Of a stretch of DNA of 64,000 nucleotides, positions 21,895 to 36,146 are shown piece after piece. Under the pieces are notes generated by a model, which did not search any database, was not told the origin of the DNA, and saw only the letters and a list, made by a program, of their open reading frames with translations. The DNA comes from Alloalcanivorax mobilis (GTDB lineage: Bacteria > Pseudomonadota > Gammaproteobacteria > Pseudomonadales > Alcanivoracaceae), in assembly GCF_002864685.1 (NCBI RefSeq), contig NZ_NMQZ01000005.1, positions 62,001-126,000 on the forward strand. The letters are read 5' to 3'. The translations under genes and the position numbers were made by a program. Positions within the stretch are counted from its first letter, which is position 1. Each line of letters opens with the position of its first letter.

Positions 21895-22985
21895 AGCTGG
21901 CCTTCGCGTTGTTTGAATACTTCCCCTACGGCGGCCTGCAGCGCGACATGCTGGCGATCGCCGGCGCCGCGCTGGCGCGCGGCCATCAGGTCACCGTTTA
22001 TACCCGCCAATGGCAGGGCGCCACGCCGAAGGGCCCGAAGGTGGTGACGCTGCCGGTGGACGCACGCAGTAACCATGCCCGCGACGCCGGCTTCGCCGCC
22101 GCGTTGGCGCCGCGCCTGGCCGGTTTCGACAGCGTGGTGGGTTTCAACAAGATGCCGGGGCTGGATTGGTACTACGCCGCCGACGGCTGCCTGGCGGCGC
22201 GCTACCATGGCCCGCGCCGCTGGCTGCCGCGCTACCGCAGCAAGCTGGCGTTCGAGCGGGCGGTGTTCGAGGCGCGCGGCGCGGCGCGAATACTCTCTAT
22301 CTCGCCGCCGCAGCGGGCGCTCTATCAGCGCCATTACGGCACCGCCGATGCCCGTTTCGTGGACCTGCCGCCGGGCATTCGCCGCGACCGTGCCCAGCCG
22401 GAAGACGTGCTGCGTCACCGGGCGATGCTGCGCACCAGCCTGGGCCTGGAAGAGCATTCGCCGATGCTGTTGTTCGTCGGTTCCGGATTCCGCACCAAGG
22501 GGCTGGACCGGGCGATCCGCACCCTGGCCGGCCTGCCCGCGCCGGCGCGGCTGTACGTGGTCGGCGAGGATCGCGCCACCCCCTATCGGCGGCTGGCCCG
22601 CAAACTGGGTGTGGCCGGGCGGGTGCACTTCATGGGCGGCCAGGATAACGTGCCGGAGTGGCTGTGGAGCGCCGATTTGCTGCTGCACCCCGCCTACGCC
22701 GAGAATACCGGCACGGTGCTGCTGGAAGCGGCGATCGCCGGCCTGCCGGTGCTGACCACCGAAGCGTGCGGCTACGCGCCCTACATCGGCGAGGGCGAGC
22801 TGGGCCAGGTGCTGGCCGAGCCGTCCGACGAGCAACTGGTGCAGGCCGCCGGTGCGCTGCTGGAGCCTCCCCGCGAGCGCTGGCGTGAGCGCTCGCGGGC
22901 GTTCGCCGCCGGCGCCGACATTTACGATCTTGTGGAGCATGCCGTGGATGCCATCGAACAGACCCCTCGCCAGGAGCGCCGATGA
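21891..22985 (+). CDS. waaG: LPS core glucosyltransferase (WaaG family, GT4)
   Basis: This 364-residue retaining glycosyltransferase adds the first outer-core hexose to heptose II. It begins MKLAFALFEYFPYGGLQRDM, as in WaaG, and contains LFVGSGFRTKGLDRAI near residue 195 and the E-x7-E nucleotide-sugar motif region HPAYAENTGTVLLEA near 265. It is joined to waaC and waaP by ATGA overlaps at both ends, so the three are cotranslated. In Pseudomonas the enzyme adds a galactosamine-type sugar, so the exact donor is open here. Confidence 0.93.
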   Translation: MKLAFALFEYFPYGGLQRDMLAIAGAALARGHQVTVYTRQWQGATPKGPKVVTLPVDARSNHARDAGFAAALAPRLAGFDSVVGFNKMPGLDWYYAADGCLAARYHGPRRWLPRYRSKLAFERAVFEARGAARILSISPPQRALYQRHYGTADARFVDLPPGIRRDRAQPEDVLRHRAMLRTSLGLEEHSPMLLFVGSGFRTKGLDRAIRTLAGLPAPARLYVVGEDRATPYRRLARKLGVAGRVHFMGGQDNVPEWLWSADLLLHPAYAENTGTVLLEAAIAGLPVLTTEACGYAPYIGEGELGQVLAEPSDEQLVQAAGALLEPPRERWRERSRAFAAGADIYDLVEHAVDAIEQTPRQERR

Positions 22986-23827
22986 CGTTGTTTATGCGCG
23001 ACGACCTGGCCCGTGCCTGGCATGACGAGGACCCTTTCGAACGGGCCGCGCACCAGGATGGCGTGATCTACCGGGCCCGGGAAGGGCGCCGCACCCTGCA
23101 ATTCGAAATCAACGAACAGCGCTACTTTCTGAAATACCACGGTGGCATCGGCTGGGGCGAGATCGTCAAGAATCTGAGCCAGGGCAAGTGGCCGATTCTG
23201 GGCGCCCTGTCGGAGGTGCGCGCGATTCGCAAAGTGGCCGGCGCCGGCATCCATACCCTGGCCATCGCCGGCTATGGCCAGCGTGGCCTGAATCCGGCGC
23301 GCCGCGAATCGTTTCTGGTCACCGATGAGCTGGTCAACACGCTCAGCCTGGAAGAGCTGGGCGAGCGCTGGCGGCTGGAACCCGGCGCCCCGAGGTTCAA
23401 ATGGGCGCTGATCCGGCGCGTCGGAGAGATCGCCAAGGCAATGCACGACGTGGGCGTCAACCACCGCGACTTCTATCTGGGTCACTTCCTGATTTCCCGG
23501 GCGGCGGTAGAACGGGAAGACAGCCGCGCGGCGCTGCATCTGATTGACCTGCATCGCTCCCAGGTGCGCGGGCGCGTGCCGCGCCGTTGGCGCGTCAAGG
23601 ACATCGGTGGGCTGTATTTTTCCACCGCCCGCCTGGACCTGACGCACCGCGATCTGCTGCGCTTCGTGCGCGCCTACACCAACATGCCGCTGCGCCGGGC
23701 GCTGGCCGACAAACACCGCCTGCTGCAGGCCAGCCGCGAGGAAGGCGAGAAAATCTATCGCCGCTACTTTGAGAAGGAGCCGGCGTTTCCGCTGCCGTTC
23801 AGCGAACATCCGGGCAAGGACATCTGA
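22982..23827 (+). CDS. waaP: LPS core heptose I kinase
   Basis: WaaP phosphorylates heptose I of the LPS core, which strengthens the outer membrane. The 281-residue protein has the WaaP pattern: FLKYHGGIGWGEIVKNL near residue 48, HRDFYLGHFLI with the catalytic aspartate near 163, and LIDLHRSQVR near 187. It overlaps waaG by 4 nt. The two-domain kinase gene starts immediately after its stop. Confidence 0.95.
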   Translation: MTLFMRDDLARAWHDEDPFERAAHQDGVIYRAREGRRTLQFEINEQRYFLKYHGGIGWGEIVKNLSQGKWPILGALSEVRAIRKVAGAGIHTLAIAGYGQRGLNPARRESFLVTDELVNTLSLEELGERWRLEPGAPRFKWALIRRVGEIAKAMHDVGVNHRDFYLGHFLISRAAVEREDSRAALHLIDLHRSQVRGRVPRRWRVKDIGGLYFSTARLDLTHRDLLRFVRAYTNMPLRRALADKHRLLQASREEGEKIYRRYFEKEPAFPLPFSEHPGKDI

Positions 23828-23828
23828 G

Positions 23829-25205
23829 ATGGCCGTGCCGAGCGCCGGAGCCGACGAGCCCCTCACTTCCCTGCGCGAACTGGCCGCCGCCGGCCGCGAG
23901 CCACGGTTGCCGGCCCGCCTCGCCACCGTCTTCGGCGATCTGATTCTGGAGCGCACACTGCGGCTGCTGCCGGGCCGGCGGCTCACCGCGCGCGCGCGGC
24001 TGGCCGGCGAGCCGGTGATCGCCAAGCTGTTCTTTGCCGATCGCAAGGCGCGTCGGGAGGCCGCCCGGGAAGCGGCGCGGCTGGCGCGGCTGGAGGCGCT
24101 GGCGGTACCGGCGCCGCGCTTGCTCGGTGACAGCGGTGGCACCGAGCAGGGCCGGGTGCTGACGTTGCAATGTCTGCCCGGCGAGAGCGCGTTGGCGGTG
24201 TATGCGCATGCCTACCCGCGCGGCCAGGGCGAATCGGTGGTGACGCGGTTGGTCGCCTTCGTCGCCGAATTGCACCGCCAGGGCTGTGTGCAAAGTGACG
24301 CCCACCTGGGCAATTTTCTGATCGACGGTTCGTGCCTGTATCTGGTCGACGCCGGCAGCGTGTTGATCCGCAGGCGGCTTTCGGCGGCGGCCAAACGCGA
24401 CAATCTGGCCGCGCTGCTGGCCCAGTTCTATCCGCTGGATTGCCTTGACCTGAATGCCATTCGCCACGCCTACGGCCCCGACGCGCCCACTCTGGACGCG
24501 TTAGCGGCGGCGTTGGCCCGGGCCCGGACGCGGCGCTATCGGCACGCCTTGAAAAAGATCCACCGCGAGTGCAGCGATTACGCGGTGGTGCGCGCGGCCG
24601 GGCTGGCCGGCATGGCCAGCCGCTCTCTGGAGGAGGACTTCCAGGCGCTGATGGCCGCCGGCATTGATCGGCAAATGGCCGAAGGTGAAACCCTCAAGCC
24701 TGGCAACAGCAGCACCGTCAGCCGGGTGCGGTGGCGTGGCCACGATTGGGTGATCAAACGCTACAACACCAAGAGCCCGGGCCACCGGCTGCGCAAGCAA
24801 TTCAAGCCCAGCCGCGCGTCGCGCTCGTGGCGCAACGCGCGCTGGCTGGAGCTGATCGGCCTGGCGACGCCAGCGCCGGTGGGCTATGCCGAGCGGCGTC
24901 CGTTCGGTGTGCTCGATACCGCCTATTTCGTTTGTCAGTATGTGGCCGGTCCGTCCCTGGCGGAGTTGCCCGCCGGCCCCGACCTGACCGCCGCCCAGCA
25001 GCAAATGGAGCGGGTGTTTGATTTGATGAAGGTCCTGAATTTCAATCACGGCGATCTCAAGGCCACCAACTTTTTGTGGGTGGCGCAGCGGCTGTGTGTG
25101 CTGGATCTGGACGCCATGCGACTGGAACTGCCCGCCGGCGAGGTGGAAACGCTGGTGGAGCGGGACCGCGCCCGCTGGCGGCGCAATTTCACGAAGGAGG
25201 CTTAG
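23829..25205 (+). CDS. Two-domain LPS kinase-like protein
   Basis: This 458-residue protein appears to contain two kinase-like folds in tandem. The first (about 30-220) has VIAKLFFADRKARREAAREA and a loop QSDAHLGNFLI followed by LVDAGSV. The second (about 255-450) has WVIKRYNTKSPGHRLRK and NHGDLKATNFLW followed by VLDLDAM. It corresponds in place and size to the kinase-like genes downstream of waaP in Pseudomonas, probably acting on LPS core sugars. ATG 23829 follows the waaP stop. The TAG stop is formed by the TA insertion site and first base of a MITE-like element, so the native 3' end may be truncated. Confidence 0.75.
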   Translation: MAVPSAGADEPLTSLRELAAAGREPRLPARLATVFGDLILERTLRLLPGRRLTARARLAGEPVIAKLFFADRKARREAAREAARLARLEALAVPAPRLLGDSGGTEQGRVLTLQCLPGESALAVYAHAYPRGQGESVVTRLVAFVAELHRQGCVQSDAHLGNFLIDGSCLYLVDAGSVLIRRRLSAAAKRDNLAALLAQFYPLDCLDLNAIRHAYGPDAPTLDALAAALARARTRRYRHALKKIHRECSDYAVVRAAGLAGMASRSLEEDFQALMAAGIDRQMAEGETLKPGNSSTVSRVRWRGHDWVIKRYNTKSPGHRLRKQFKPSRASRSWRNARWLELIGLATPAPVGYAERRPFGVLDTAYFVCQYVAGPSLAELPAGPDLTAAQQQMERVFDLMKVLNFNHGDLKATNFLWVAQRLCVLDLDAMRLELPAGEVETLVERDRARWRRNFTKEA

Positions 25206-25469
25206 GGCCTGTTCACACTCATTATGATGGTCGCGTTGCTGCCCCAAAGCGGGCCAGGCAAGGCGCGAGGAGAGAGGGTTAGTATGCTAAATGACCGACG
25301 AGCAACACCGCCTGGCCCGCTTTGGGGCGCAACCCGAAGGGCCGGGGCCGTTTTCGCGCAATCCCGCGTTGCGGTTCGCTTGTGTGGCGGCCCACACCAC
25401 GCTCACCGCGCCTTGGTTTGCGCGAAAACGACCTCCGGCGCGGCCATCATAATGAGTGTGAACAGGCCC
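25205..25469. mobile_element. MITE-like element with 31-bp terminal inverted repeats
   Basis: This 265-bp segment is bounded by inverted repeats at 25205-25235 and 25439-25469 (one mismatch), beginning GGGCCTGTTCACACTCATTA. It is flanked by TA on both sides (25203-25204 and 25470-25471), consistent with a TA target duplication as made by IS630/Tc1-type transposases. Inside are two further inverted repeats: a perfect 19-bp pair (25241-25259 with 25310-25328) and a perfect 13-bp pair (25349-25361 with 25418-25430). No open frame of meaningful length lies inside, so it is non-autonomous. Together with its 3' flank it fills the gap up to neuB. Confidence 0.85.
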
Positions 25470-25588
25470 TAGGTCACTCCCGCCTGCGCGCTTCCTGCCT
25501 GTACAATGGGGGCCGGCAGGCCCGAAGATGAGCGCCACGGTTGAATCCCGCGCCGCTTTCCGTAACCACGTTCGCGCAAAGGCTCAGC

Positions 25589-26647
25589 ATGGAAAACGCT
25601 ACCCAAAACGCCAGTTTTAGCATCGCCGGCCGGGCCATCGGCCCGGACCACAAGCCCCTGGTGATCGCCGAGATCGGCATCAATCACGAAGGCAGCCTGG
25701 AGACCGCCAAGGCGATGGTCGATGCCGCGCAACGGGCTGGCGTGGAGATGATCAAACATCAGACCCATGTGGTCGCCGATGAGATGTCCGGCGCCGCCAA
25801 AAAAGTGATCCCGGGCAACGCTTCGGTGTCGATCTACGAGATCATGGACCGCTGCAGCCTGGACGAAGAGCAGGAAACGGAGCTCAAGAACTACGTTGAG
25901 TCCAAGGGCATTATTTTCATCAGTACGCCGTTTTCCCGCGCCGCCGCCGACCGCCTGGAAAGAATGAACGTACCGGCCTACAAGATCGGCTCCGGCGAGT
26001 GCAACAACTACCCGTTGTTGAAACACATCGCCGGGTTTGGCAAGCCGGTCATCCTCAGCACCGGCATGAACAACATCGAGAGCATCCGCAAAGCGACGAG
26101 GATTTTCGATGAGGCAGGGGTTCCCTATGGGTTGCTGCACACCACCAACCTGTACCCGACGCCGGCGCACCTGGTGCGTCTGGGCGCGATGAGCGAACTG
26201 GGCCGTGAATTTCCGGGTGTGGTGATCGGGTTGTCCGATCACACCATCTCCAACCACGCCTGCTTCGCGGCGGTGGCGCTGGGCGCCTCGATTCTGGAGC
26301 GTCACTTCACCGACACCATGTCGCGGCCGGGCCCGGACATCGTCAACTCCATGGACGAGACCGCCACCCGCGAACTGCTGGAAGGCTCCGAGCTGATCTG
26401 GCGGATGCGCGGCGGTAAGAAAGAAGCCGCCGCCGAAGAGCGGGTCACCAGCGATTTCGCCTTCGCCAGCGTGGTGACCATCAAGGCCATCGCCGCCGGC
26501 GAACCCTTCACCAAGGACAACCTCTGGGTGAAGCGCCCCGGCACCGGTGAAATTCTCTCCGAGCATTACGAGGATTTGCTTGGCAAAACCGCCGCCCGCG
26601 CGATCCACGCCGACGAGCAGCTTGGCTGGGGCGACGTGTCGGAATGA
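25589..26647 (+). CDS. neuB: N-acetylneuraminate synthase-like enzyme
   Basis: NeuB condenses N-acetylmannosamine with phosphoenolpyruvate to make sialic acid. The 352-residue protein has the TIM-barrel domain (about 15-280; [46 protein letters not shown]) and a C-terminal SAF/antifreeze-like domain (about 290-352; [12 protein letters not shown]). ATG 25589 gives the family-like start. A -10-like TACAAT at 25502 lies about 30 bp beyond the MITE. neuC overlaps its stop (ATGA). Related enzymes make legionaminic or pseudaminic acid, but their extra genes are absent here. Confidence 0.88.
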
Positions 26648-27780
26648 AAAAGCGGATTCTTTTTCTGACCGGCACGCGCGCCGATTTCGGTAAGCTGAAA
26701 TCGCTGATCAGCTCGGTCGAGGACGCCGAGCGATTCGAGTACGGCATCTTCGCCACCGGCATGCACATGATGTCCAAGTACGGACTCACCGTGAATGAGA
26801 TCGGCAAATCCGGCTTCACCAACGTGTTCACCTACATGAACCAGAGTGAGGGCGACGCCATGGAGGTGGTGCTGGCCAACACCATCACCGGGTTGAGCCG
26901 TTACCTGCAGGAACACCATTACGATCTGATCGTGGTGCACGGTGACCGGGTTGAGGCGCTGGCCGGGGCCACGGTGGGCGCCCTGCGCAATATCCTGGTG
27001 GCCCATGTGGAAGGTGGCGAGGTCTCCGGCACCATCGACGAACTGATGCGCCACGCCATCACCAAGATGTCGCACTTGCATTTCGTTGCCAGCGAAACCG
27101 CCCGCCGCCGCTTGATTCAACTCGGTGAAGATGAGAACAACATCTTCCTGATCGGTTCGCCGGACGTGGACGTGATGCTCTCCGACGCGCTGCCGAGCCT
27201 GGAACAGGCGCGCCAGCGCTATGAGATTCCGTTCCAGGATTACGCCATTTGCATGCTCCATCCGGTGACCACCGAAGACGAGGTGGAGCGCAAACAAAGC
27301 GCTCGCCGTTATGTCGACGCGCTGATCGACAGCGGCCGTCATTACGTGGTGATTTATCCGAATAACGATCAGGGCTGCGAGGCCATCTTCGAAGCCTATG
27401 AGAAGATCGCGGAGCACCCGCGTTTCCGTCTGTTCCCGTCGTTGCGGTTTGAATATTTTCTGACCCTGCTCAAGCACGCCGATTTTATCATCGGCAACTC
27501 CAGTGCCGGCATTCACGAAGCGCCCATCTACGCGGTCCCCACCATCAACGTGGGCAAGCGCCAGCACAACAGAATGGTCCATGAGGGCATTCGCAACGTC
27601 GGCTTCGATCACCAAGACATCATCGCGGCGATCACCGAGACGCTGGCCGCCGAGCGCCATGCGCCACTCTACCATTACGGCGAAGGCGGCAGTGCCGGCA
27701 AGTTCATGGACACGCTGCGCGACGATGCCTTCTGGGCGACGCCCAATCAGAAGCATTTCAAGGATCTGGTGTTTCCATGA
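26644..27780 (+). CDS. neuC: UDP-GlcNAc 2-epimerase (hydrolysing), NeuC family
   Basis: NeuC releases N-acetylmannosamine from UDP-GlcNAc, feeding NeuB. The 378-residue GT-B-fold protein starts [20 protein letters not shown], typical of the hydrolysing subfamily, with [13 protein letters not shown] near residue 98, [13 protein letters not shown] near 121 and the C-terminal [10 protein letters not shown] near 287. It overlaps neuB and neuA by 4 nt each. The related legionaminate epimerase (LegG, acting on a diamino sugar) is an alternative, disfavoured because no legionaminate precursor genes are present. Confidence 0.87.
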
Positions 27781-28472
27781 TCGAAGGCAAAAGCGTATTG
27801 GCGCTGATCACCGCCCGTGGCGGCTCCAAGGGGATTCCCGGCAAGAACATCAAACCCCTCGCCGGCAAGCCGCTGATCGCCTGGTCCATCGAGGCGGCCC
27901 GCGCGTCGCGATACGTGGACCGGTTGGTGGTGTCCAGCGACGCCGGCGACATCCTCGAGGTGGCGCGCCGCTACGGGGCGGAAGTACCGTTCACCCGGCC
28001 CGAGGCGCTGGCGGCGGATGACACCGGCAGCATGGAGGTGATTCTGCACGCTCTGCAGGCGCTGGATCAGCCCTACGATTATCTGTTGCTGCTGCAACCG
28101 ACCTCGCCGTTTCGTACCGCCGCCGACATCGACGACGCCCTGGAACAGACCGTTCGCGAGGGCGCTTCGTTGACCGTCTCGGTGGCCCGTCTCAAGAAAC
28201 ATCCGATGTTCATGTACAAAGTGGAAGGCGGCAAACTGGTGCCGTTTTTCGACAACTCGGGTACCCAATTGCGGCGCCAGGATATGCCCGCCGCGTTCGA
28301 GCATAACGGCGCCTTGTACATCGCCCGGGTGCCGTACCTGTTGCAAGCGCGCAGTTTTAACACCCCGGAAGCGACCCCCTATGTGATGGACGGCCCGGTC
28401 AACCTGGACATCGACACCCCGGAAGACTGGGAGCAGGCCGAGCGGCTGGCCGCCCGTCTCGGGCTGGCCTGA
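27777..28472 (+). CDS. neuA: CMP-N-acylneuraminate cytidylyltransferase
   Basis: NeuA activates sialic acid with CTP to give the CMP-sugar donor. The 231-residue protein has the signature ARGGSKGIPGKNIKPLAGKP near residue 13 and LLLQPTSPFRTAADID near 103. It is the single-domain form without the esterase domain seen in E. coli NeuA. It overlaps neuC by 4 nt and is followed after 9 nt by the polysialyltransferase-like gene, forming a tight neuB-neuC-neuA-GT operon. Confidence 0.87.
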   Translation: MIEGKSVLALITARGGSKGIPGKNIKPLAGKPLIAWSIEAARASRYVDRLVVSSDAGDILEVARRYGAEVPFTRPEALAADDTGSMEVILHALQALDQPYDYLLLLQPTSPFRTAADIDDALEQTVREGASLTVSVARLKKHPMFMYKVEGGKLVPFFDNSGTQLRRQDMPAAFEHNGALYIARVPYLLQARSFNTPEATPYVMDGPVNLDIDTPEDWEQAERLAARLGLA

Positions 28473-28481
28473 GGAGCGCCC

Positions 28482-29516
28482 ATGACTCGCACGGTGGCGG
28501 TCTACTTCACCAAGACCGAACTTGAGGTGCTCTCCTCGGAGATCATCGCCGGCACCTACGAGCACGGCAGTGACAATCTTCTCGTGCATCAGGGCCGGCG
28601 GGCGCCACAGATCATCCGTGAGCGCACTTTCCGCTCGGTGCTGCGTTTCGACGACGCCAAGCAAAGCGGCAAGCGGCGCGAGAAAGCGCGCATCGTCGAG
28701 AACCTGGAAGCGCTGGCGCACGCGGTGGGCGATGGCGGCGAAGTGCCCTCGGCCATTAAGCTGCATCTGCCGCGCACTTCAACGTCACGCTCCAATTACG
28801 CGATCCGCTTTCTGGAGAGGGCGTTTCCCCACGCCCGCGTGGAAATCTGTTTGATTCCCCACGGTTTGGTGAGCGTGGAAATCACGCCTTTGACTTTGAA
28901 GTACCGCTGGCGCTTTTTCCGCCGGCGCTGGCATCCGGTGCACCTGCTGTTCCCGGCGCTGCGCTACTACACCCCGAAAGGTGACCTGATCGGCGGTCTG
29001 GACCCGAAGGTGAGCACGGTCTACACCTTTCAGGGTATGCCCACGCCGTACCCGCTGGAGAAGACCCGTGAACTGAGCGGCGCGCGGGAATATCTGCAAG
29101 CGGCCTCCGAGGGCGCGCCCAGGCAACGCTGCGCTCTGATCATCGGGCAGCCGCTGGTGATGCATAACCGGCTCAGCGCCGGGCAAGAGAAGGCCGCCTC
29201 GGACCAGGTGGCGCAATGGCTCAGCGAGCACGGCTATCAACAGGTCTACTACAGCAAGCACCCGCGCAGCGGCGAGCACCTGGATTTCTACCAGGACCAG
29301 TACTCGATATTGCAACAACAGGGCGCGGTGGAGGTGGTGCTTTGTGAGCTGCGACCGGAGGTGGTGATCTCCTGCTACAGCACCGCGCTGGTAACCACCA
29401 AGGTGCTGTTTGGCGAGGACATCCGCGCGCTCTCGTTTGCTTTGGATAAAGTCGACCTGCCCAGCCGGGCGAGCCTGGGCGCCTATATGAACGGCGTCGG
29501 CGTGGAGTTGCTGTAA
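28482..29516 (+). CDS. Polysialyltransferase-like glycosyltransferase
   Basis: This 344-residue protein looks like the alpha-2,8-polysialyltransferase family (A-2_8-polyST). The recognisable points are an N-terminal donor fold, an HP-type motif (YYSKHPRSGEHLDFY near residue 262) and a downstream serine/threonine segment (EVVISCYSTALVTTKVLFG near 292) that together bind CMP-sialic acid in this group. Its place right after neuA fits the use of CMP-sialic acid. Whether it adds one residue or a chain cannot be told. I recognised the family by motif and context rather than by strong similarity. Confidence 0.65.
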   Translation: MTRTVAVYFTKTELEVLSSEIIAGTYEHGSDNLLVHQGRRAPQIIRERTFRSVLRFDDAKQSGKRREKARIVENLEALAHAVGDGGEVPSAIKLHLPRTSTSRSNYAIRFLERAFPHARVEICLIPHGLVSVEITPLTLKYRWRFFRRRWHPVHLLFPALRYYTPKGDLIGGLDPKVSTVYTFQGMPTPYPLEKTRELSGAREYLQAASEGAPRQRCALIIGQPLVMHNRLSAGQEKAASDQVAQWLSEHGYQQVYYSKHPRSGEHLDFYQDQYSILQQQGAVEVVLCELRPEVVISCYSTALVTTKVLFGEDIRALSFALDKVDLPSRASLGAYMNGVGVELL

Positions 29517-29529
29517 ACCGCGACATTGG

Positions 29530-30675
29530 TCAAGCGATGCGCGCGAAGAACTCTTGATAAAATTCGGTGGTGCGGTTTTTCTGTTGGGCGATTTCGTTCT
29601 CGTTGATACGAAGGTTGCCCCTTTCGTAATCGCTGGCCTTGCCGATCACGCGGTCGGCGAAGCCCGGGGTGGGTTGCACCACGCTGTCGGCCATGTCCAG
29701 GGATTGATACAGGTGCGAGACGCGGTCAAGCACCGCCATGCCGATGGTGTTGGCGTTCAGGGCGAGGCTGCAAACGTTGGCGTGAAAGCGGCTGCCGATC
29801 ACCAGTTCGCTGTGCTGATACACGGAAAACACCAGATTGGCGCCGGCCACATCCTGAATGCAAGGCGCCACCGAGATTTTCTTGCGTTTCAGAAAATCGT
29901 TCTGCCCTTCGAGCAGCGAGAAAATGGCCTTCAGGTCGCCGTGGATGTGCGGCACCAGCACCACATGCTTATTCTGGTGGTGCGAGAAATGCTCGATCAG
30001 GAGGGAAAGCTCCTGATAGTAGGCGTGTTTGTCGATGGGGCCATGCTGCTGGCTGAGCATGTCGAGTTGGTCGTCGGAAACATTGATGGCCACGTAGCTG
30101 GGCACCGGCATCATCGGGGCCTGGATCTCCGGCTCAAAGAAAAAGCCGCTGTCCAGCACCTCGCCAAAGGCGCCCTGGTACTTGCCGCGGAACTCGCGGT
30201 GCAGGTTGGCGACCGAGCCGTCGTTGCGGAACGCGATGCGCGTATTGTCACGCTCACGAACCTGGTCGAGGAACGCTTCCAGGCGTTGCAGATTGCCCGC
30301 TGGCACCTCTTTGTGCGGAAAGCAGCCGATGCTGGTGATCAGCATGGGCACGGTCAGGGCATCCAGGGCGCGCTGGTCGATGTCGATGGTGGTGCCGGTG
30401 GCGCTGTCGGGCACCCAGTAATCGAGAAAACCGCCGCCGCCGATAATCAGCAGGTCGAAACGGTTGGCGTGGTCGACGAAGTCCAGATCGAACGCGAGCT
30501 TGTCCGCATCGTGGTAATTTTTGTAGAACTTTCTGATTTCCTGTTGCTCTATGCTGGCGTTGTCACCGAGAACGCTGTGCAGAATCGAATAGAGGCCGCA
30601 GTGGCTGGCGTTGTCGCCAATATTGCCGATAAAGGACGCTACATGCAGAATTTTAAACTTGCTGCCGCTCAACAT
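29530..30675 (-). CDS. Polysaccharide pyruvyl transferase family protein
   Basis: This 381-residue protein of the polysaccharide pyruvyl transferase family (PF04230) uses phosphoenolpyruvate to add pyruvate ketals to sugars. The opening ILHVASFIGNIGDNASHCG and DLLIIGGGGFLDYW near residue 75 are the N-terminal glycine-rich motifs. SELVIGSRFHANVCSLALN near 290 is the conserved C-terminal GxRxHA-type motif. It converges on the sialic-acid operon with a 13-bp gap. It may pyruvylate a sugar of the same surface glycan; the acceptor is unknown. Confidence 0.82.
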   Translation of the reverse strand: MLSGSKFKILHVASFIGNIGDNASHCGLYSILHSVLGDNASIEQQEIRKFYKNYHDADKLAFDLDFVDHANRFDLLIIGGGGFLDYWVPDSATGTTIDIDQRALDALTVPMLITSIGCFPHKEVPAGNLQRLEAFLDQVRERDNTRIAFRNDGSVANLHREFRGKYQGAFGEVLDSGFFFEPEIQAPMMPVPSYVAINVSDDQLDMLSQQHGPIDKHAYYQELSLLIEHFSHHQNKHVVLVPHIHGDLKAIFSLLEGQNDFLKRKKISVAPCIQDVAGANLVFSVYQHSELVIGSRFHANVCSLALNANTIGMAVLDRVSHLYQSLDMADSVVQPTPGFADRVIGKASDYERGNLRINENEIAQQKNRTTEFYQEFFARIA

Positions 30676-30862: not shown

Positions 30863-32359
30863 ATGACACAAGGGCCGCTCCGGCGGGATCAAGGCGTCAC
30901 GGCCTGGGACTATCGGCTCCCCCTGGTGCTGACCATGGCCGCCAGCGTGGTTCTTTCGCTGGTGTCGATGCACTATTCGCCGATTCTCAACCGCGACGGC
31001 ATGATGTACATCCATCTGGCGCGACTGATTGGCGACGGCCGGCTGGACAGTGCCCTGGCGCTGTTCGACTGGCCGTTCTTCCCGGCACTGCTGGCCGCCT
31101 TGAAGGCGCTGTTGCCGCTGCCGCTGATTCACATCGCCTATGGCACCAGCCTGCTGTTCGCGGCGCTCACCACCTGGATGCTGGTAGTGCTGATGCACCG
31201 GGCGGTGCCCACCGGCAATATCTGGTGGGCGGTGTTGCTGGCGCTGAGCCTGCCGGCCACCGATCAATATCGCCCGGATGTGCTGCGCGACTGGCCGGCC
31301 TGGTTCTTCATGTTGCTGTCGGTGTGGGTCTACCTGCGCTATTCCGCTGGCCACGCCTGGCGCTGGGCGCTGGCGTTCTCCGTGACGGTGCTGGTGGGCG
31401 CGCTGTTTCGCCTGGAAGTGGCGGTGATCGCCGCGCCGCTGTTTCTGCTTTCGCTGTTCGAGCGTGGCTACGGCTGGCGCGAGCGCATTCGCCTGTTCGC
31501 GTTGCCGCTGGTCGCCGGCGTGCTGCTGCTGGGGCTGTTGGTGATCGAGGGCGGGCGCTTCAGCCACCGGCTCTGGGATTATTGGAACACGGTCAACCCG
31601 CTGGTGATCTACGACGGCTTTCGCCAATCCGGTGACGCCCTGGCCGATGCGGTTCTGAACCGGTTTTCCCGGGACTACGGCGCCGCCATCCTGGCGGTCG
31701 GGTTGCTGGTGCTGATCCCGACGAAACTGATTCACTTTTTGTTCGGCCTGCTGCTGCCTTATGCGCTGGAGCGCCGTCACGGCGCCATTGATGGCGGGCC
31801 GGCGTTGCGCGTATACCGCTGGCTGGCATGGACCTGGTTGCTGCTGGTGACGGTGTTTCTGTTGCGCAACTACTACGCGTCATCACGCTACCTGGTGCCG
31901 CTGATGCTGTTCCTGATGCCGTTTTTGTATCTCGGGCTGGTGCGGTTGCGCGAGCGTACCGCTCATCGCGGGCTGTGGGCGCTGCTGGTGTTTCTGATCG
32001 TGCTGCACGGCTTGTCGGCGGCGATCGCCACCCGCGGGCCGGAGAAACTGGCGATCCGCGAGGCCGGCACCTGGGCCGGCGAGCATCTGCCCGCCGACGA
32101 TCGGGTCTACATTAACAATGGCCAAGTGAACTTCTACTCCGGCCGGCCCTATTTCCGGGGCTCCTCGAACAAGATCCTGGCGCCGCAAGAGGTCCACAGC
32201 GACTGGCAGGTGCTGGCGGTGCGCCGCGCCGACGAAGCGAAAACCCGGCAACGGCTGGACAATGAGTACCAGCTTCTGGAGCGCTTCGACAGTGAAGGCT
32301 CGGAGGTGGTGCTGGTGTTCGAAAAACTGGCCGTCAATAGCCAGCCAGCGGCTCAGTAG
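30863..32359 (+). CDS. GT39/ArnT-like membrane glycosyltransferase (putative)
   Basis: This 498-residue protein has about ten or more hydrophobic segments between residues 18 and 385 and a soluble C-terminal region (about 395-498). The first periplasmic loop carries ILNRDGMMYIHLARL, resembling the acidic motif of GT-C fold (GT39/ArnT-type) enzymes that use polyprenyl-phosphate sugars. Neighbouring LPS genes suggest a role in surface glycan or lipid A modification. It starts 187 bp from the divergent pyruvyl transferase and overlaps the LpxL-like gene by 7 bp at the 3' end. Confidence 0.6.
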   Translation: MTQGPLRRDQGVTAWDYRLPLVLTMAASVVLSLVSMHYSPILNRDGMMYIHLARLIGDGRLDSALALFDWPFFPALLAALKALLPLPLIHIAYGTSLLFAALTTWMLVVLMHRAVPTGNIWWAVLLALSLPATDQYRPDVLRDWPAWFFMLLSVWVYLRYSAGHAWRWALAFSVTVLVGALFRLEVAVIAAPLFLLSLFERGYGWRERIRLFALPLVAGVLLLGLLVIEGGRFSHRLWDYWNTVNPLVIYDGFRQSGDALADAVLNRFSRDYGAAILAVGLLVLIPTKLIHFLFGLLLPYALERRHGAIDGGPALRVYRWLAWTWLLLVTVFLLRNYYASSRYLVPLMLFLMPFLYLGLVRLRERTAHRGLWALLVFLIVLHGLSAAIATRGPEKLAIREAGTWAGEHLPADDRVYINNGQVNFYSGRPYFRGSSNKILAPQEVHSDWQVLAVRRADEAKTRQRLDNEYQLLERFDSEGSEVVLVFEKLAVNSQPAAQ

Positions 32360-33267
32360 GGCGAGCGCCGCCCCTCGGGCTGGTGTTTGAAGCGCTTGTG
32401 CACCCACAAGTACTGGTCCGGGTGCTTGCGCACATAGCGTTCGATGGTTTGGTTGATGGCGAGGGTGTCGGTTTCGTCGTCGCCGCAGGGAAAGTCCTCC
32501 AGCGCCGGGCCGAACTCGATTTCGTAGCGGCCGCCGGGCAGCCGGTAATGGGCGCAAGGGATCACCGCCGCTTTGCCCATTTTGGCGATCCGGCTGGTCG
32601 AGGTGATGGTGGCGGCGGGCACGCCGAAAAACGGCACGAACACGGCGTGCTCGGTGCCGTAGTCCTGATCCGGGGCGTACCAGACCACCTCGCCTTTGCG
32701 CAGAAGACGCACGGTCTGGCGCAGGTCGCGGCGATCCACCGAGTGCTTGACCCAACTGCCGCGGCCCTCGGTGATCAGGCGATCCAGCAAGGGGTTATCG
32801 TTGGGCCGGTAGACCACGCTGAACTCGAAGATCTTGCCAAGCAGGCGGCTGCCCACATCGATGCTGTTGAAGTGCATGCCCAGCAGCAGCACACCCTGGC
32901 CCCGGGCGCGGGCTGCTTCGAGGTGTTCCATGCCTTTTACGTGCAGGCGTTTGTCCAGATCCACGCGGCGGTTGTGGAAGCTGCCGGCCATCTCCAGGAT
33001 TGCTTCGCCGGTGCTCAGAAATACCCGCCGGGCCATCGCCTCGCGCTCGCTCTCGCTGAGCTCCGGGAAGCACAGGCGCAGATTGGTCAGCGTGACGCGC
33101 CGCCGCGACCCGCCCAGGCGCCAGGCGATTCGCCCCACGCAGCGGCCGATACCCAGTAGCAGGTCCCACGGCAACTGGCCGATCAGCCAGAACAGCGCCA
33201 GCCCCAGGCGGGTCGGCCACAGGCGCGGATCGCGAGGGTCGGTGGGGCGTTTTTTGCGTTGACCCAC
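32353..33267 (-). CDS. LpxL/LpxM-family lauroyl/myristoyl acyltransferase
   Basis: This late lipid A acyltransferase of 304 residues has one N-terminal membrane segment (LGLALFWLIGQLPWDLLLGI) and the catalytic H-x4-D motif (GMHFNSIDVG) near residue 131. FVPFFGVPAATITSTSRIA and the terminal YLWVHKRFKHQPEG are characteristic of LpxL. GTG 33267 is chosen for agreement with the LpxL N-terminus; a GTG at 33306 would overlap the upstream gene. It follows the O-antigen-ligase-like gene by 4 nt, so the two are cotranscribed. Confidence 0.88.
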   Translation of the reverse strand: MGQRKKRPTDPRDPRLWPTRLGLALFWLIGQLPWDLLLGIGRCVGRIAWRLGGSRRRVTLTNLRLCFPELSESEREAMARRVFLSTGEAILEMAGSFHNRRVDLDKRLHVKGMEHLEAARARGQGVLLLGMHFNSIDVGSRLLGKIFEFSVVYRPNDNPLLDRLITEGRGSWVKHSVDRRDLRQTVRLLRKGEVVWYAPDQDYGTEHAVFVPFFGVPAATITSTSRIAKMGKAAVIPCAHYRLPGGRYEIEFGPALEDFPCGDDETDTLAINQTIERYVRKHPDQYLWVHKRFKHQPEGRRSPY

Positions 33268-33271
33268 GGCG

Positions 33272-34444
33272 TCAGTGCACCACGGCCCGGGGGCGCACCG
33301 TTTCACGGGTGCTCAGGCAGGCGAGCATCAACGCCAGCGGCAGCCACAGGCTCATCCAACTGGGGTGGAACGGCACCAGAAGGTAGGCGCCATCGCTGAG
33401 CATGGCGAGCAAGCCGGGCAGCAGGCTGACCAGAAACACGGCGCCCTCGCGGTGGTTCTGATCGCTGTCGGGGAGCTTCCAGGCGGGCACCGCCCAGCTC
33501 GCCACGAACAGAACCAGGCCGATCAAGCCAGTGCTGTGCACCACCGCCAGCAGCACGTTGTCCGGGTGGGGGATCACCCGCAGGCCGTTTTGCAACTGCA
33601 CCATCAGGGAATCACCGGTTTCCTGGCTCAGCCCGTTGCCGATGATCGGGTGGCTGAAATACATGGATGCCTGGCGCAATACGTCGAAGTCCAGCGCCAT
33701 GTACAGCGCCACCGCGCCGGCCAGGGCGGCCAGCAAACGCTGGCGGTAGCGCAGCAGCACCCAGCCCAGGGCCATGATCAGCAGCATGGCGCCGGTTTGC
33801 CAGTGCACCAGCAGCAGGAACGTGAAGCCGACCAGGGCGCCAGTGCCGCGGCGCGCGCCCTTGGGGCTGAAGCCTTCATCCAGGGCCTGGGCCAGCAGAA
33901 TGAACGACGGCGCCACCAGCGCCATGGTGGAGAGCAGCGGCCCGGGCTGGGGCAAATTGAAAATCAGGCTGGCGGGCTCACTGAACAGTGGGCTGGAGAG
34001 CGGCTGAATGGTGTAATAGCTGACCATGATCACCGCCAGCATCACCATCGAGGTCATGGCGCCATTGGCGAGCGCTTGCTTAAGGGTGTGCCGGTAATAC
34101 ACATGCACCCAGCGCAGGGTGCCGACCAGAATAATGATCTGCACCACCGCGCGCACCGTGCGCGAGCTGTTGGCGTCCGCCGCCCAGGCCATGGTCAGCA
34201 GGGTCCAGCCGAGAAAGGCATAGAGTGGAATCAGCCAGGGGTCCAGCAAAAGCCGCTTGTCGCCGCTCACCAGAGCGCGGGTGAGCAGGGTCAGGGCGGG
34301 CAGAAAAAACAGCACATCCACCACATTGAGCATGGCAACGCGGGAGTGAAACAGAAAGGCGCTGGTGAACATGACCGCGAACGAAACCGTCAGCCACAGT
34401 CTTAGCCACCTCCCCTGTAGCACGTTGTGGCGCAATGCCGTCAT
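33272..34444 (-). CDS. O-antigen ligase/Wzy-like membrane protein
   Basis: This 390-residue polytopic protein with about ten membrane spans resembles the O-antigen ligase/polymerase family (Wzy_C). GLSQETGDSLMVQLQNGLRVIPHPDNVLLAVVHSTG is the large periplasmic loop region near residue 270, with the histidine typical of ligases (HPDNVLLAVVHSTGLIG). It may be the WaaL-type enzyme joining surface glycan to the core. ATG 34444 is preceded by AGGA. A longer frame to 34570 lacks membrane character. It forms a two-gene unit with the LpxL-like gene. Confidence 0.7.
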   Translation of the reverse strand: MTALRHNVLQGRWLRLWLTVSFAVMFTSAFLFHSRVAMLNVVDVLFFLPALTLLTRALVSGDKRLLLDPWLIPLYAFLGWTLLTMAWAADANSSRTVRAVVQIIILVGTLRWVHVYYRHTLKQALANGAMTSMVMLAVIMVSYYTIQPLSSPLFSEPASLIFNLPQPGPLLSTMALVAPSFILLAQALDEGFSPKGARRGTGALVGFTFLLLVHWQTGAMLLIMALGWVLLRYRQRLLAALAGAVALYMALDFDVLRQASMYFSHPIIGNGLSQETGDSLMVQLQNGLRVIPHPDNVLLAVVHSTGLIGLVLFVASWAVPAWKLPDSDQNHREGAVFLVSLLPGLLAMLSDGAYLLVPFHPSWMSLWLPLALMLACLSTRETVRPRAVVH

Positions 34445-34718: not shown

Positions 34719-36146
34719 ATGCAACACACCCCCATCCCCCCGTTTGGTCAGGCCCACGTGCTGGTGGCCGGCGATGTCATGCTGGACCGCTACTGGCATG
34801 GCCCCACCGGCCGCATTTCGCCGGAGGCGCCGGTGCCGGTGGTGCGTGTCACCGAGCTTGAAGACCGCCCCGGTGGTGCCGCCAACGTGGCGCTTAACAT
34901 GGCCGCGCTCGGTGCCCGTGCCGAACTGGTCGGGGTGACCGGCGACGACGAAGCCGCCGGGCTGCTCGAGGAGCGCCTGGCGGCCGCCGATGTCACCTGC
35001 CACTTTCAGAAAGTACAGGGTCTGCCGACGATTACCAAGCTGCGTGTGATCAGCCGTCAGCAGCAACTGCTGCGGTTGGATTTCGAGGAATCGTTCCAGG
35101 ATCAGGACCCGGTCCCCTTCACGGACAAGGTCAAAGCCGGTCTGGCGGGCTGCGGTGCCCTGGTGCTTTCGGACTACGCGAAAGGCGCGCTGCGCGATTG
35201 CCCCACGCTGATCAGCCTGGCGCGCCAGGCCGGTGTGCCGGTGCTGGTCGATCCCAAGGGCGCCGATTTCAGCCGCTACCGGGGGGCTACGCTTTTGACT
35301 CCCAATCTGGCCGAGTTCGAGGCGGTGGTGGGGCCGGTGCCGGACGAAAAGACCTTGCTGGAGAAAGGCCAGGCGTTGATGTCGGAACTGCAGCTGGACG
35401 CGCTGTTGATCACGCGCAGCGAAAAAGGCATGACGCTGCTGCGAGCGGGTAAACCGGAGCTGCACTTGCCGGCCCACGCCCGCGAGGTGTTTGATGTCAC
35501 CGGCGCCGGCGACACGGTGATTTCGACGCTGGCGGTGGCGCTCGCCGCCGGCGGCACCCTGGAGAACGCCGTGGCGCTGGCCAATATCGCCGCCGGCATC
35601 GTGGTCGGCAAGCTGGGCACCGCGGTGGTGTCGGCCCCGGAGCTGCGCCGCGCGGTGCATCGCACCGGCGGCATCGGGCGCGGCGTGATGAGCGAGGAAC
35701 AGCTGCTCACCGCCATCGAGGACGCCCGCGCCCAGGGCGAGAAAATTGTGTTCACCAACGGCTGCTTCGACATCATCCACGCCGGCCATGTCGGCTATCT
35801 GGACTCGGCCCGTCGTCTTGGCGACCGGTTGGTGCTGGCGGTCAACGGCGACGATTCGATTCGCCGGTTGAAGGGCGCGGGCCGGCCGATCAACTCCCTG
35901 GACCGCCGCATGGCGGTGCTCGCCGCGCTGGAAGCGGTAGACTACGTGGTGGCCTTCGACACCGACACTCCGGAACCGCTGCTTGAGAAGATCAAACCAG
36001 AGGTGCTGGTGAAAGGCGGCGACTACAGCGTCGATCAGGTGGTGGGCGCGGACATCGTCAAGGCCTATGGGGGCGAGGTGAGAGTGCTCGACTTTGTCGA
36101 GGACATTTCCACCACCCACATCGTGCAGAAGATCCGCGGGGAATAA
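34719..36146 (+). CDS. hldE: Bifunctional heptose-7-phosphate kinase/heptose-1-phosphate adenylyltransferase
   Basis: HldE makes ADP-heptose for the LPS inner core. The 475-residue protein (E. coli 477) has an N-terminal ribokinase-type domain (about 1-320; [38 protein letters not shown]) and a C-terminal cytidylyltransferase-fold domain (about 340-475; [18 protein letters not shown]). ATG 34719 is preceded by CAGGAG. It supplies the donor used by waaC and waaF encoded about 13 kb away. Confidence 0.97.

Follow-up and report, generated by a model that had tools for sequence, protein, structure and literature searches.

A probable make-and-attach nonulosonate cassette at a variable site in the lipopolysaccharide core operon of Alloalcanivorax mobilis

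Introduction

Why should genes for a sialic-acid-type sugar sit inside the lipopolysaccharide (LPS) core operon of Alloalcanivorax mobilis, and do they form a unit that could both make the sugar and attach it there? Sialic-acid-type sugars of LPS have, in our impression, mostly been treated in host-associated bacteria. The genes in question occupy positions 25589-30675 of a 64,000-nucleotide stretch of contig NZ_NMQZ01000005.1 (the whole stretch is called the window below), where synthesis, transfer and pyruvylation genes for a nonulosonic acid follow the kinase genes of the core operon. An earlier reading of the letters alone (the sequence-only reading) had proposed that the product decorates LPS. 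We find that the cassette is real, intact and of a known kind; it is not a new class of system, and what is unusual is its apparently exchangeable position. The evidence makes it probable that the five genes are a self-contained cassette for making and attaching a nonulosonic acid, most likely N-acetylneuraminic acid (Neu5Ac), at a variable site of the core operon.

Results

The five-gene unit

The cassette opens with neuB (25589-26647, plus strand), which encodes an N-acetylneuraminate synthase that matches PF03102 at 224.6 bits and also carries a SAF domain. It is followed on the same strand by neuC (26644-27780), for a hydrolysing UDP-GlcNAc 2-epimerase (TIGR03568, 406.5 bits against a cut-off of 235.9; PF02350), and by neuA (27777-28472), for a CMP-nonulosonate cytidylyltransferase (PF02348, 90.6 bits). 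All frames are open, and a 4-nucleotide ATGA overlap joins neuB to neuC and again neuC to neuA; coordinates and family matches bear out the joined trio described by the sequence-only reading. After a gap of 9 nucleotides comes the gene of a nonulosonate transferase resembling glycosyltransferase family 38 (GT38; 28482-29516, plus strand), whose match to PF07388 (A-2_8-polyST, 42.6 bits, cut-off 23.3) upholds the earlier placing of a polysialyltransferase-family gene after neuA. Convergent with it, and 13 nucleotides away, is a polysaccharide pyruvyl transferase gene (29530-30675, minus strand; PF04230, PS_pyruv_trans, 40 bits, cut-off 25.3). PF03102, PF02350, PF02348, PF07388 and PF04230 are each matched above their own Pfam cut-off in the cassette proteins.

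A two-row NeuB alignment was used to scan genome_contigs, in which each of 84,980 species is represented by a single genome, and the best 80 loci were kept; a relative is encoded in at least 508 of the 597 matching stretches. The top locus among these 80 belongs to Pseudomonas lopnurensis AL-54 (NZ_JADDIX010000100.1) and contains all five genes, with identities to the window of 76% for NeuB, 69% for NeuC, 61% for NeuA and 47% each for the transferase and the pyruvyl transferase. It too lies in an LPS core locus, with carbamoyltransferase, kinase, waaP and waaG genes on one side and glycosyltransferase-like genes, a Wzy_C ligase-like gene and an MsbA-like ABC transporter on the other (MsbA, waaG and the kinases being named from sequence or similarity). 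It differs from the window in that its pyruvyl transferase gene comes first, ahead of neuB, neuC, neuA and the transferase gene, and all five share a single strand. Because the five genes recur, reordered, in this second core locus, we count the pyruvyl transferase as a member of the unit, which supports the link with the convergent gene that the sequence-only reading had made. In the other 79 loci, mostly from Bacteroidota, neither the transferase nor the pyruvyl transferase had a match at E 1e-3, some of these stretches being short. In a NeuB tree of 84 rows, which do not include SiaC of Neisseria meningitidis, the window and P. lopnurensis proteins are sisters (100/96) and adjoin a Bacteroidota group. 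Legionaminic and pseudaminic rows fall far outside the window group, on two very long branches; the bootstrap of this tree had yet to settle.

The transferase

In a polysialyltransferase (PST) from Mannheimia, E153 of a D/E-D/E-G motif is described as the catalytic base and H291 of an HP motif as the acid, S339-T340 are thought to aid phosphate holding, and the E153A variant retains almost no activity (PMC5517516). The window transferase keeps the last two motifs as H260-P261 and S300-T301, and P126-H127-G128 replaces D/E-D/E-G. From its place in the protein we infer that His127 (codon 28860-28862, plus strand) is the catalytic base; its correspondence to the expected base position is set by motif order and by alignment to homologues, with Mannheimia PST itself not among the aligned rows. 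Across the ten aligned sequences, P-H-G is found in the window, in P. lopnurensis and in a genome of another family (G578), all three being core-linked. In six of the seven others the glycine is preceded by an acidic residue (PDG twice, SDG, DEG, EDG and EEG); the seventh, L048, has EQG at this motif and fits poorly elsewhere. HP is present in 10 of 10 sequences and the ST pair in 7 of 10, the exceptions being L042, L045 and L048. The alignment does not include L041, L046 and L047, PF07388 loci for which our rule yielded no frame, and L137 (PDG), near-identical to L136, was not repeated in it. Since P-H-G recurs in proteins 47% (P. lopnurensis) and 28% (G578) identical to that of the window, the histidine is conserved and no lone accident.

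Measured against GT38, the protein has the PF07388 match, the HP motif and the ST pair, and lacks the acidic base of D/E-D/E-G. The label 'polysialyltransferase-like' given by the sequence-only reading holds for the family, but is not supported as a guide to polysialic acid, which we rejected as the first choice of product in view of the altered catalytic-base motif and of the homologue that lies within the legionaminic acid set of G578.

Among 143 relatives the transferase was found in one genome, that of A. mobilis itself; the 12 further genus genomes are without it. Within the class the PF07388 model matches 8 of 369 genomes, and within the order a two-row transferase alignment matches 5 of 390, with the A. 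mobilis genome counted in both figures. Single-sequence searches gave no relative in genome_contigs, viral_contigs or phages; plasmids yielded one weak relative (27.9% identity, from Nonomuraea) and, at E 10, four more records at chance level. The Nonomuraea gerenzanensis locus (L049, 328-4771) contains a NeuA-HAD-NeuB fusion frame and then a glycosyltransferase-like frame, and the distant transferase relative found there has SDG in the motif. Among solved chains, neither phmmer nor a six-row profile produced a significant match for the transferase, the weak profile matches being KaiC and an AAA protein (E 0.11 and 1.2). An AlphaFold2 model built from two sequences has a mean predicted local distance difference test score (pLDDT) of 40.2.

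The predicted product

The best solved relative of the window NeuB is N. meningitidis SiaC, at 473.7 bits over 341 residues, compared with 126.8 bits for a solved pseudaminic acid synthase. The best solved relatives of NeuA are CMP-Neu5Ac synthetases, and a search of the window genome for LegC gave nothing above the cut-off (best 197 bits, cut-off 420). Because SiaC is the nearest match of NeuB by a wide margin and LegC is not found above its cut-off, Neu5Ac is predicted to be the most likely product.

The site across the genus and the order

The genus is represented by 13 genomes, which share conserved core genes but differ in the interval between waaP and lpxL; in one of them (G001) the contig ends inside the interval. 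In a sister species (G008) the interval carries PseB, PseC, PseF, PseG, PseH and PseI, each above its NCBIfam cut-off. This complete pseudaminic acid set lies between a dual kinase (60-61% identity to the window) and a membrane protein (62%), the same two genes that border the site in the window. The site in G008 also holds a 369-residue gene with no Pfam match over cut-off, then an acyltransferase gene, and the G008 gene at the position of the pyruvyl transferase has no BLASTP similarity to the pyruvyl transferase or the transferase of the window. In five of the other 11 genus genomes (G003, G004, G005, G006 and G012) the frames at the site are glycosyltransferase- or Wzy-like by sequence, and no nonulosonate set was recognised among them.

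Related arrangements occur elsewhere in the order. In G578 a single unnamed gene (283 residues) separates the transferase homologue from waaP; after the homologue come LegB and LegC, both above their cut-offs, and then NeuC, NeuB, NeuD, a CBS/nucleotidyltransferase-like gene and NeuA. The CBS/nucleotidyltransferase-like gene is split into two frames (L134, 2850-3910), through either an assembly error or a real break. A further genome, G046, has neuC, neuA and neuB between waaP and hldE, and this waaP-hldE locus showed nothing related to the window transferase. Its neu genes (L040, 6876-9448) are interspersed with a HisH-like protein, so named by sequence, and a WbuX-type amidotransferase, which suggests that its nonulosonic acid is amidated.

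A census of 390 genomes of the order places these cases in context. NeuB (PF03102, E 1e-20) is present in 126 of the 390 and WaaP (E 1e-15) in 115. Among the 34 genomes having both, the two lie within 20 kb on one contig in 4 (A. mobilis, G008, G046 and G578), a lower bound given that many assemblies are fragmented; random placement in a 4-Mb genome would yield about 0.3 such pairs by a hand estimate. Two of the four waaP-linked sets are Neu-type, one is pseudaminic and one legionaminic. On these counts, nonulosonate genes are common in the order and the core-linked position is a minority state. With pseudaminic, legionaminic and other Neu-type sets carried by relatives at the same or a corresponding waaP-linked site, the place has the look of a hotspot for cassettes, at which the acidic sugar at the outer end of the core would be exchanged in one block.

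Surroundings of the cassette

The operon runs glnE, ilvE, waaF, a small kinase gene, waaC, waaG, waaP and the dual kinase gene, then a miniature inverted-repeat transposable element (MITE) and the cassette, and on the far side the membrane protein gene, lpxL, a waaL-like gene and hldE; the names glnE, ilvE, waaF, waaC, waaG, lpxL and hldE were assigned by sequence and position and not by running the window proteins against a family library. The left flank is formed by waaP, the heptose I kinase gene (22982-23827, plus strand; NF011703, 332.1 bits, cut-off 170), and the left edge by the dual kinase gene (23829-25205, plus strand), with an APH-like and a Kdo/WaaP-like part; the cassette does stand behind waaP-type kinases in the core locus, as had been read from the letters. 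The dual kinase is distant in the other 11 genomes of the genus (32-37% identity). At the right edge is a 498-residue membrane protein (30863-32359, plus strand) for which Pfam has no match, not even at E 1, and whose sequence leaves the impression of a GT-C type glycosyltransferase. Its counterpart in G004 is 37% identical, and it was not found in the other 10 genus stretches, the G001 stretch being incomplete. For both edge genes the window and G008 versions are much closer to each other than to the rest of the genus; unlike them, the window waaP is closer to that of some other species (80% in G011) than to that of G008 (74%). The stretch thus seems to have a history of its own.

Further to the right are an lpxL-like lipid A acyltransferase gene (32353-33306, minus strand, by homology from sequence), which adjoins the site in all genomes of the genus but G001, where the contig ends earlier, and a waaL/Wzy-like membrane protein gene (33272-34444, minus strand) whose PF04932 match of 18.3 bits is below the cut-off of 31.7 and whose position is kept in the genus. 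The right flank of the core locus is hldE (34719-36146, plus strand), a name based on its sequence and position; ten stretches from the genus contain the whole gene, at 86-89% identity.

The MITE that stands after the kinase genes and before neuB (25203-25471, no strand assigned), already noticed by the sequence-only reading, is substantiated by its 33-nucleotide terminal inverted repeats (25203-25235 and 25439-25471, 97% complementary) and by a genome-wide count of 8 near-full-length copies (92-100% identity), the window copy counted in. It is short, multicopy and flanked by an apparent TA target duplication, and its left repeat starts within the stop codon of the dual kinase gene. A search in and beside the element found no sigma-70-like promoter or terminator.

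Other surface-sugar genes of A. mobilis lie on separate contigs. Contig C64 (L141, 309-5615) carries Wzi, Wza and Wzc-like kinase genes, an export set for a capsule or exopolysaccharide. Named by sequence, contig C44 (L144) encodes dTDP-sugar, glycosyltransferase-like, sulfotransferase-like and Wzx-like proteins, and contig C52 (L145) encodes PglC-like, PglD-like, Wzx-like and WecA-like proteins.

Discussion

The five enzymes can be ordered into a pathway. NeuC would convert UDP-GlcNAc to N-acetylmannosamine (ManNAc), NeuB would combine ManNAc with phosphoenolpyruvate to give Neu5Ac, and NeuA would activate it to CMP-Neu5Ac. Still in the cytoplasm, and ahead of the flipping of lipid A-core, the GT38-like transferase would then link Neu5Ac to a sugar of the outer core; the same glycan would receive a pyruvate ketal on one of its sugars from the PF04230 enzyme. 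We infer the Neu5Ac product, the core acceptor and pyruvylation of the same glycan from gene content and linkage. The core is the suggested acceptor because linkage to core genes repeats in different genera: the five genes recur in a core locus of P. lopnurensis, and other species have nonulosonate sets at this very site (G008) or linked to waaP (G578 and G046). To this extent the earlier proposal that the sugar goes to LPS stands as likely, but its supporting argument, a lack of capsule export genes, fails genome-wide, given the wzi-wza-wzc set on C64. PF02563 (Wza/KpsD-type) has no match in the window and one in the genome, on C64, in a survey that did not extend to Kps-type transport genes. 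In the pyruvyl transferases of the window and P. lopnurensis a kept R296-F297-H298 stretch resembles, at the level of the motif, R337-L338-H339 of Pvg1, for which contact with phosphoenolpyruvate is reported in a model; pyruvylation is also said there to mimic sialylation (PMC6801904). A phmmer search of solved chains with the pyruvyl transferase returned only two chance-level matches.

Several observations weigh against a self-contained, core-directed Neu5Ac cassette. Without the genome of the window itself, the NeuB-waaP census falls to 3 of 33. In G567, G582 and G602, three of the five order genomes that match the transferase alignment, the homologues are not beside nonulosonate synthesis genes within the 20 kb examined, and in the family of G578 the transferase is found in G578 alone (1 of 10). 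The Wzi-Wza-Wzc and Wzx-like genes elsewhere in the genome would suit a capsule or O-antigen acceptor: CMP-Neu5Ac could be used on a lipid-linked repeat that exits through Wzx/Wzy and Wzi-Wza-Wzc, the core locus being merely a convenient place for the genes. In favour of this alternative are wzi, wza and wzc on C64, Wzx-like flippases on C44 and C52, a PF02397 sugar transferase on C52 and a Pfam name that derives from capsule polysialyltransferases; in our judgement it is unlikely. The transferase and neu genes stand in core loci of two genera, and in a third the transferase is beside waaP with a legionaminic set; no capsule export gene was recognised among the frames of those stretches, most of which were not run against the family library. 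The replaced base bears on a different alternative, since a histidine for the acidic residue could mean changed or lost activity, and the E153A variant of Mannheimia PST is nearly inactive (PMC5517516). A transferase without catalytic activity, or with a different role, would leave attachment of the sugar to some other enzyme; this seems quite improbable, since the histidine, HP and ST are kept in three proteins from three families at 28-47% identity, which is not a pattern of decay.

The identity of the sugar invites similar scrutiny. NeuB scores 384.7 bits with TIGR03569 (NeuB_NnaB), just below the cut-off of 399.65; this model does not discriminate, because it also accepts the synthase of the G578 legionaminic set (485.3 bits). 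NeuC is nearly as close to solved diacetyl-bacillosamine epimerases (177.7 bits) as to human GNE (194.5 bits), and C52 carries PglD-like acetyltransferase, PglC-like sugar transferase and DegT-type aminotransferase genes that could feed a legionaminic route. NeuC and NeuB might then use an intermediate supplied from C52 to make legionaminic or another di-N-acyl nonulosonic acid, in keeping with the homologous transferase inside a legionaminic set. We think this rather unlikely, given that NeuB is distant from the legionaminic synthase row in the tree and far nearest to SiaC, and that the best LegC score in the genome is well short of its cut-off.

Was the cassette acquired by horizontal transfer? 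NeuB at E 1e-60 or better is found in 2 of 57 relatives, the second at 65% identity and from another family, and within the order sample it is present in 2 of 8 genus genomes, A. mobilis and G008, the latter of pseudaminic type. Both this distribution and the position of the window protein in the NeuB tree speak for horizontal acquisition. Base composition gives scant sign of recent transfer: the cassette genes have a G+C content (GC) of 0.58-0.65 and, at third codon positions (GC3), of 0.79-0.83, compared with a GC3 of 0.80-0.86 in surrounding genes. Foreign composition as proof of transfer was rejected, since GC3 hardly differs. In P. lopnurensis the cassette has a GC of 0.52 against 0.65 in the waa stretch; the differences are small in G008 (0.62 against 0.63) and G578 (0.43 against 0.47). 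On the question of transfer, which the sequence-only reading had proposed to check, distribution (transferase in 1 of 143) and the NeuB tree are thus favourable, and composition hardly so. A GC3 close to that of the core genes is what an ordinary ancestral sialic acid locus of the genus, lost in sister species and with nothing mobile about it, would show. We regard such an origin as very unlikely: the two genus genomes with NeuB in the order sample carry different types of set, the transferase is absent from the other 12, and the closest complete unit among the best 80 loci is in Pseudomonas.

The glycan had been called unusual for a free-living, probably marine, organism. We agree in part: a core-linked position is a minority state (4 of 34), but nonulosonate genes are common. 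A review names Rhodobacter capsulatus and Pseudomonas aeruginosa, among others, for Neu5Ac in LPS, and says that P. aeruginosa has LPS sialic acid without synthesis of its own (PMC9631793); marine bacterial polysaccharides are reported to contain nonulosonic acids (PMC3210612), and NeuB is present in 126 of 390 order genomes. What the locus offers is a synthesis and attachment block in the core operon of different genera, with blocks for related sugars at that place in sister species. This amounts to a natural experiment on the role of the sugar, for which phage attachment is an obvious candidate, and the transferase is a variant with a testable change at the catalytic base. We suggest tentatively, as a possibility that we place somewhat short of even chances, that the stretch after waaP is an exchange site for nonulosonate caps, where complete Neu-type, pseudaminic and legionaminic sets take each other's place, and that such sets can carry a separate, histidine-base class of GT38-like enzyme that would transfer the nonulosonate directly to the core. 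If true, a bacterium could change its outermost core sugar, probably a phage receptor, by a single recombination step. A literature search, with subscription journals mostly outside its reach, found among the papers listed no description of an exchange of nonulosonate sets within a core operon or of a histidine-base GT38 enzyme.

The sialyltransferases that act on lipooligosaccharide (LOS) in Neisseria, Haemophilus and Campylobacter belong to families GT42, GT52 and GT80. LOS sialylation in these bacteria likewise puts sialic acid on a core-type oligosaccharide (PMC9631793); the window differs in having synthesis, transfer and pyruvylation genes in one block, and in the family of its transferase. 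It shares with the GT38 polysialyltransferases (PF07388; Mannheimia PST, PMC5517516) the Pfam family and the right order of HP and ST, and departs from them in the histidine at the expected base position and in having one homologue in a legionaminic set. Like the neuBCA pathway to CMP-Neu5Ac, of the meningococcal SiaC type, the cassette has three enzymes in one overlapping unit; unlike it, the unit is set in an LPS core operon, comes with a pyruvyl transferase and has no PF02563 export gene in the window. The K loci of Acinetobacter baumannii are described as carrying psa (pseudaminic) or lga (legionaminic) modules at one locus in different strains, as well as a ptr pyruvyl transferase gene (PMC3628348). 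Those are capsule loci with export genes, whereas the site described here is in the LPS core operon and involves a Neu-type set.

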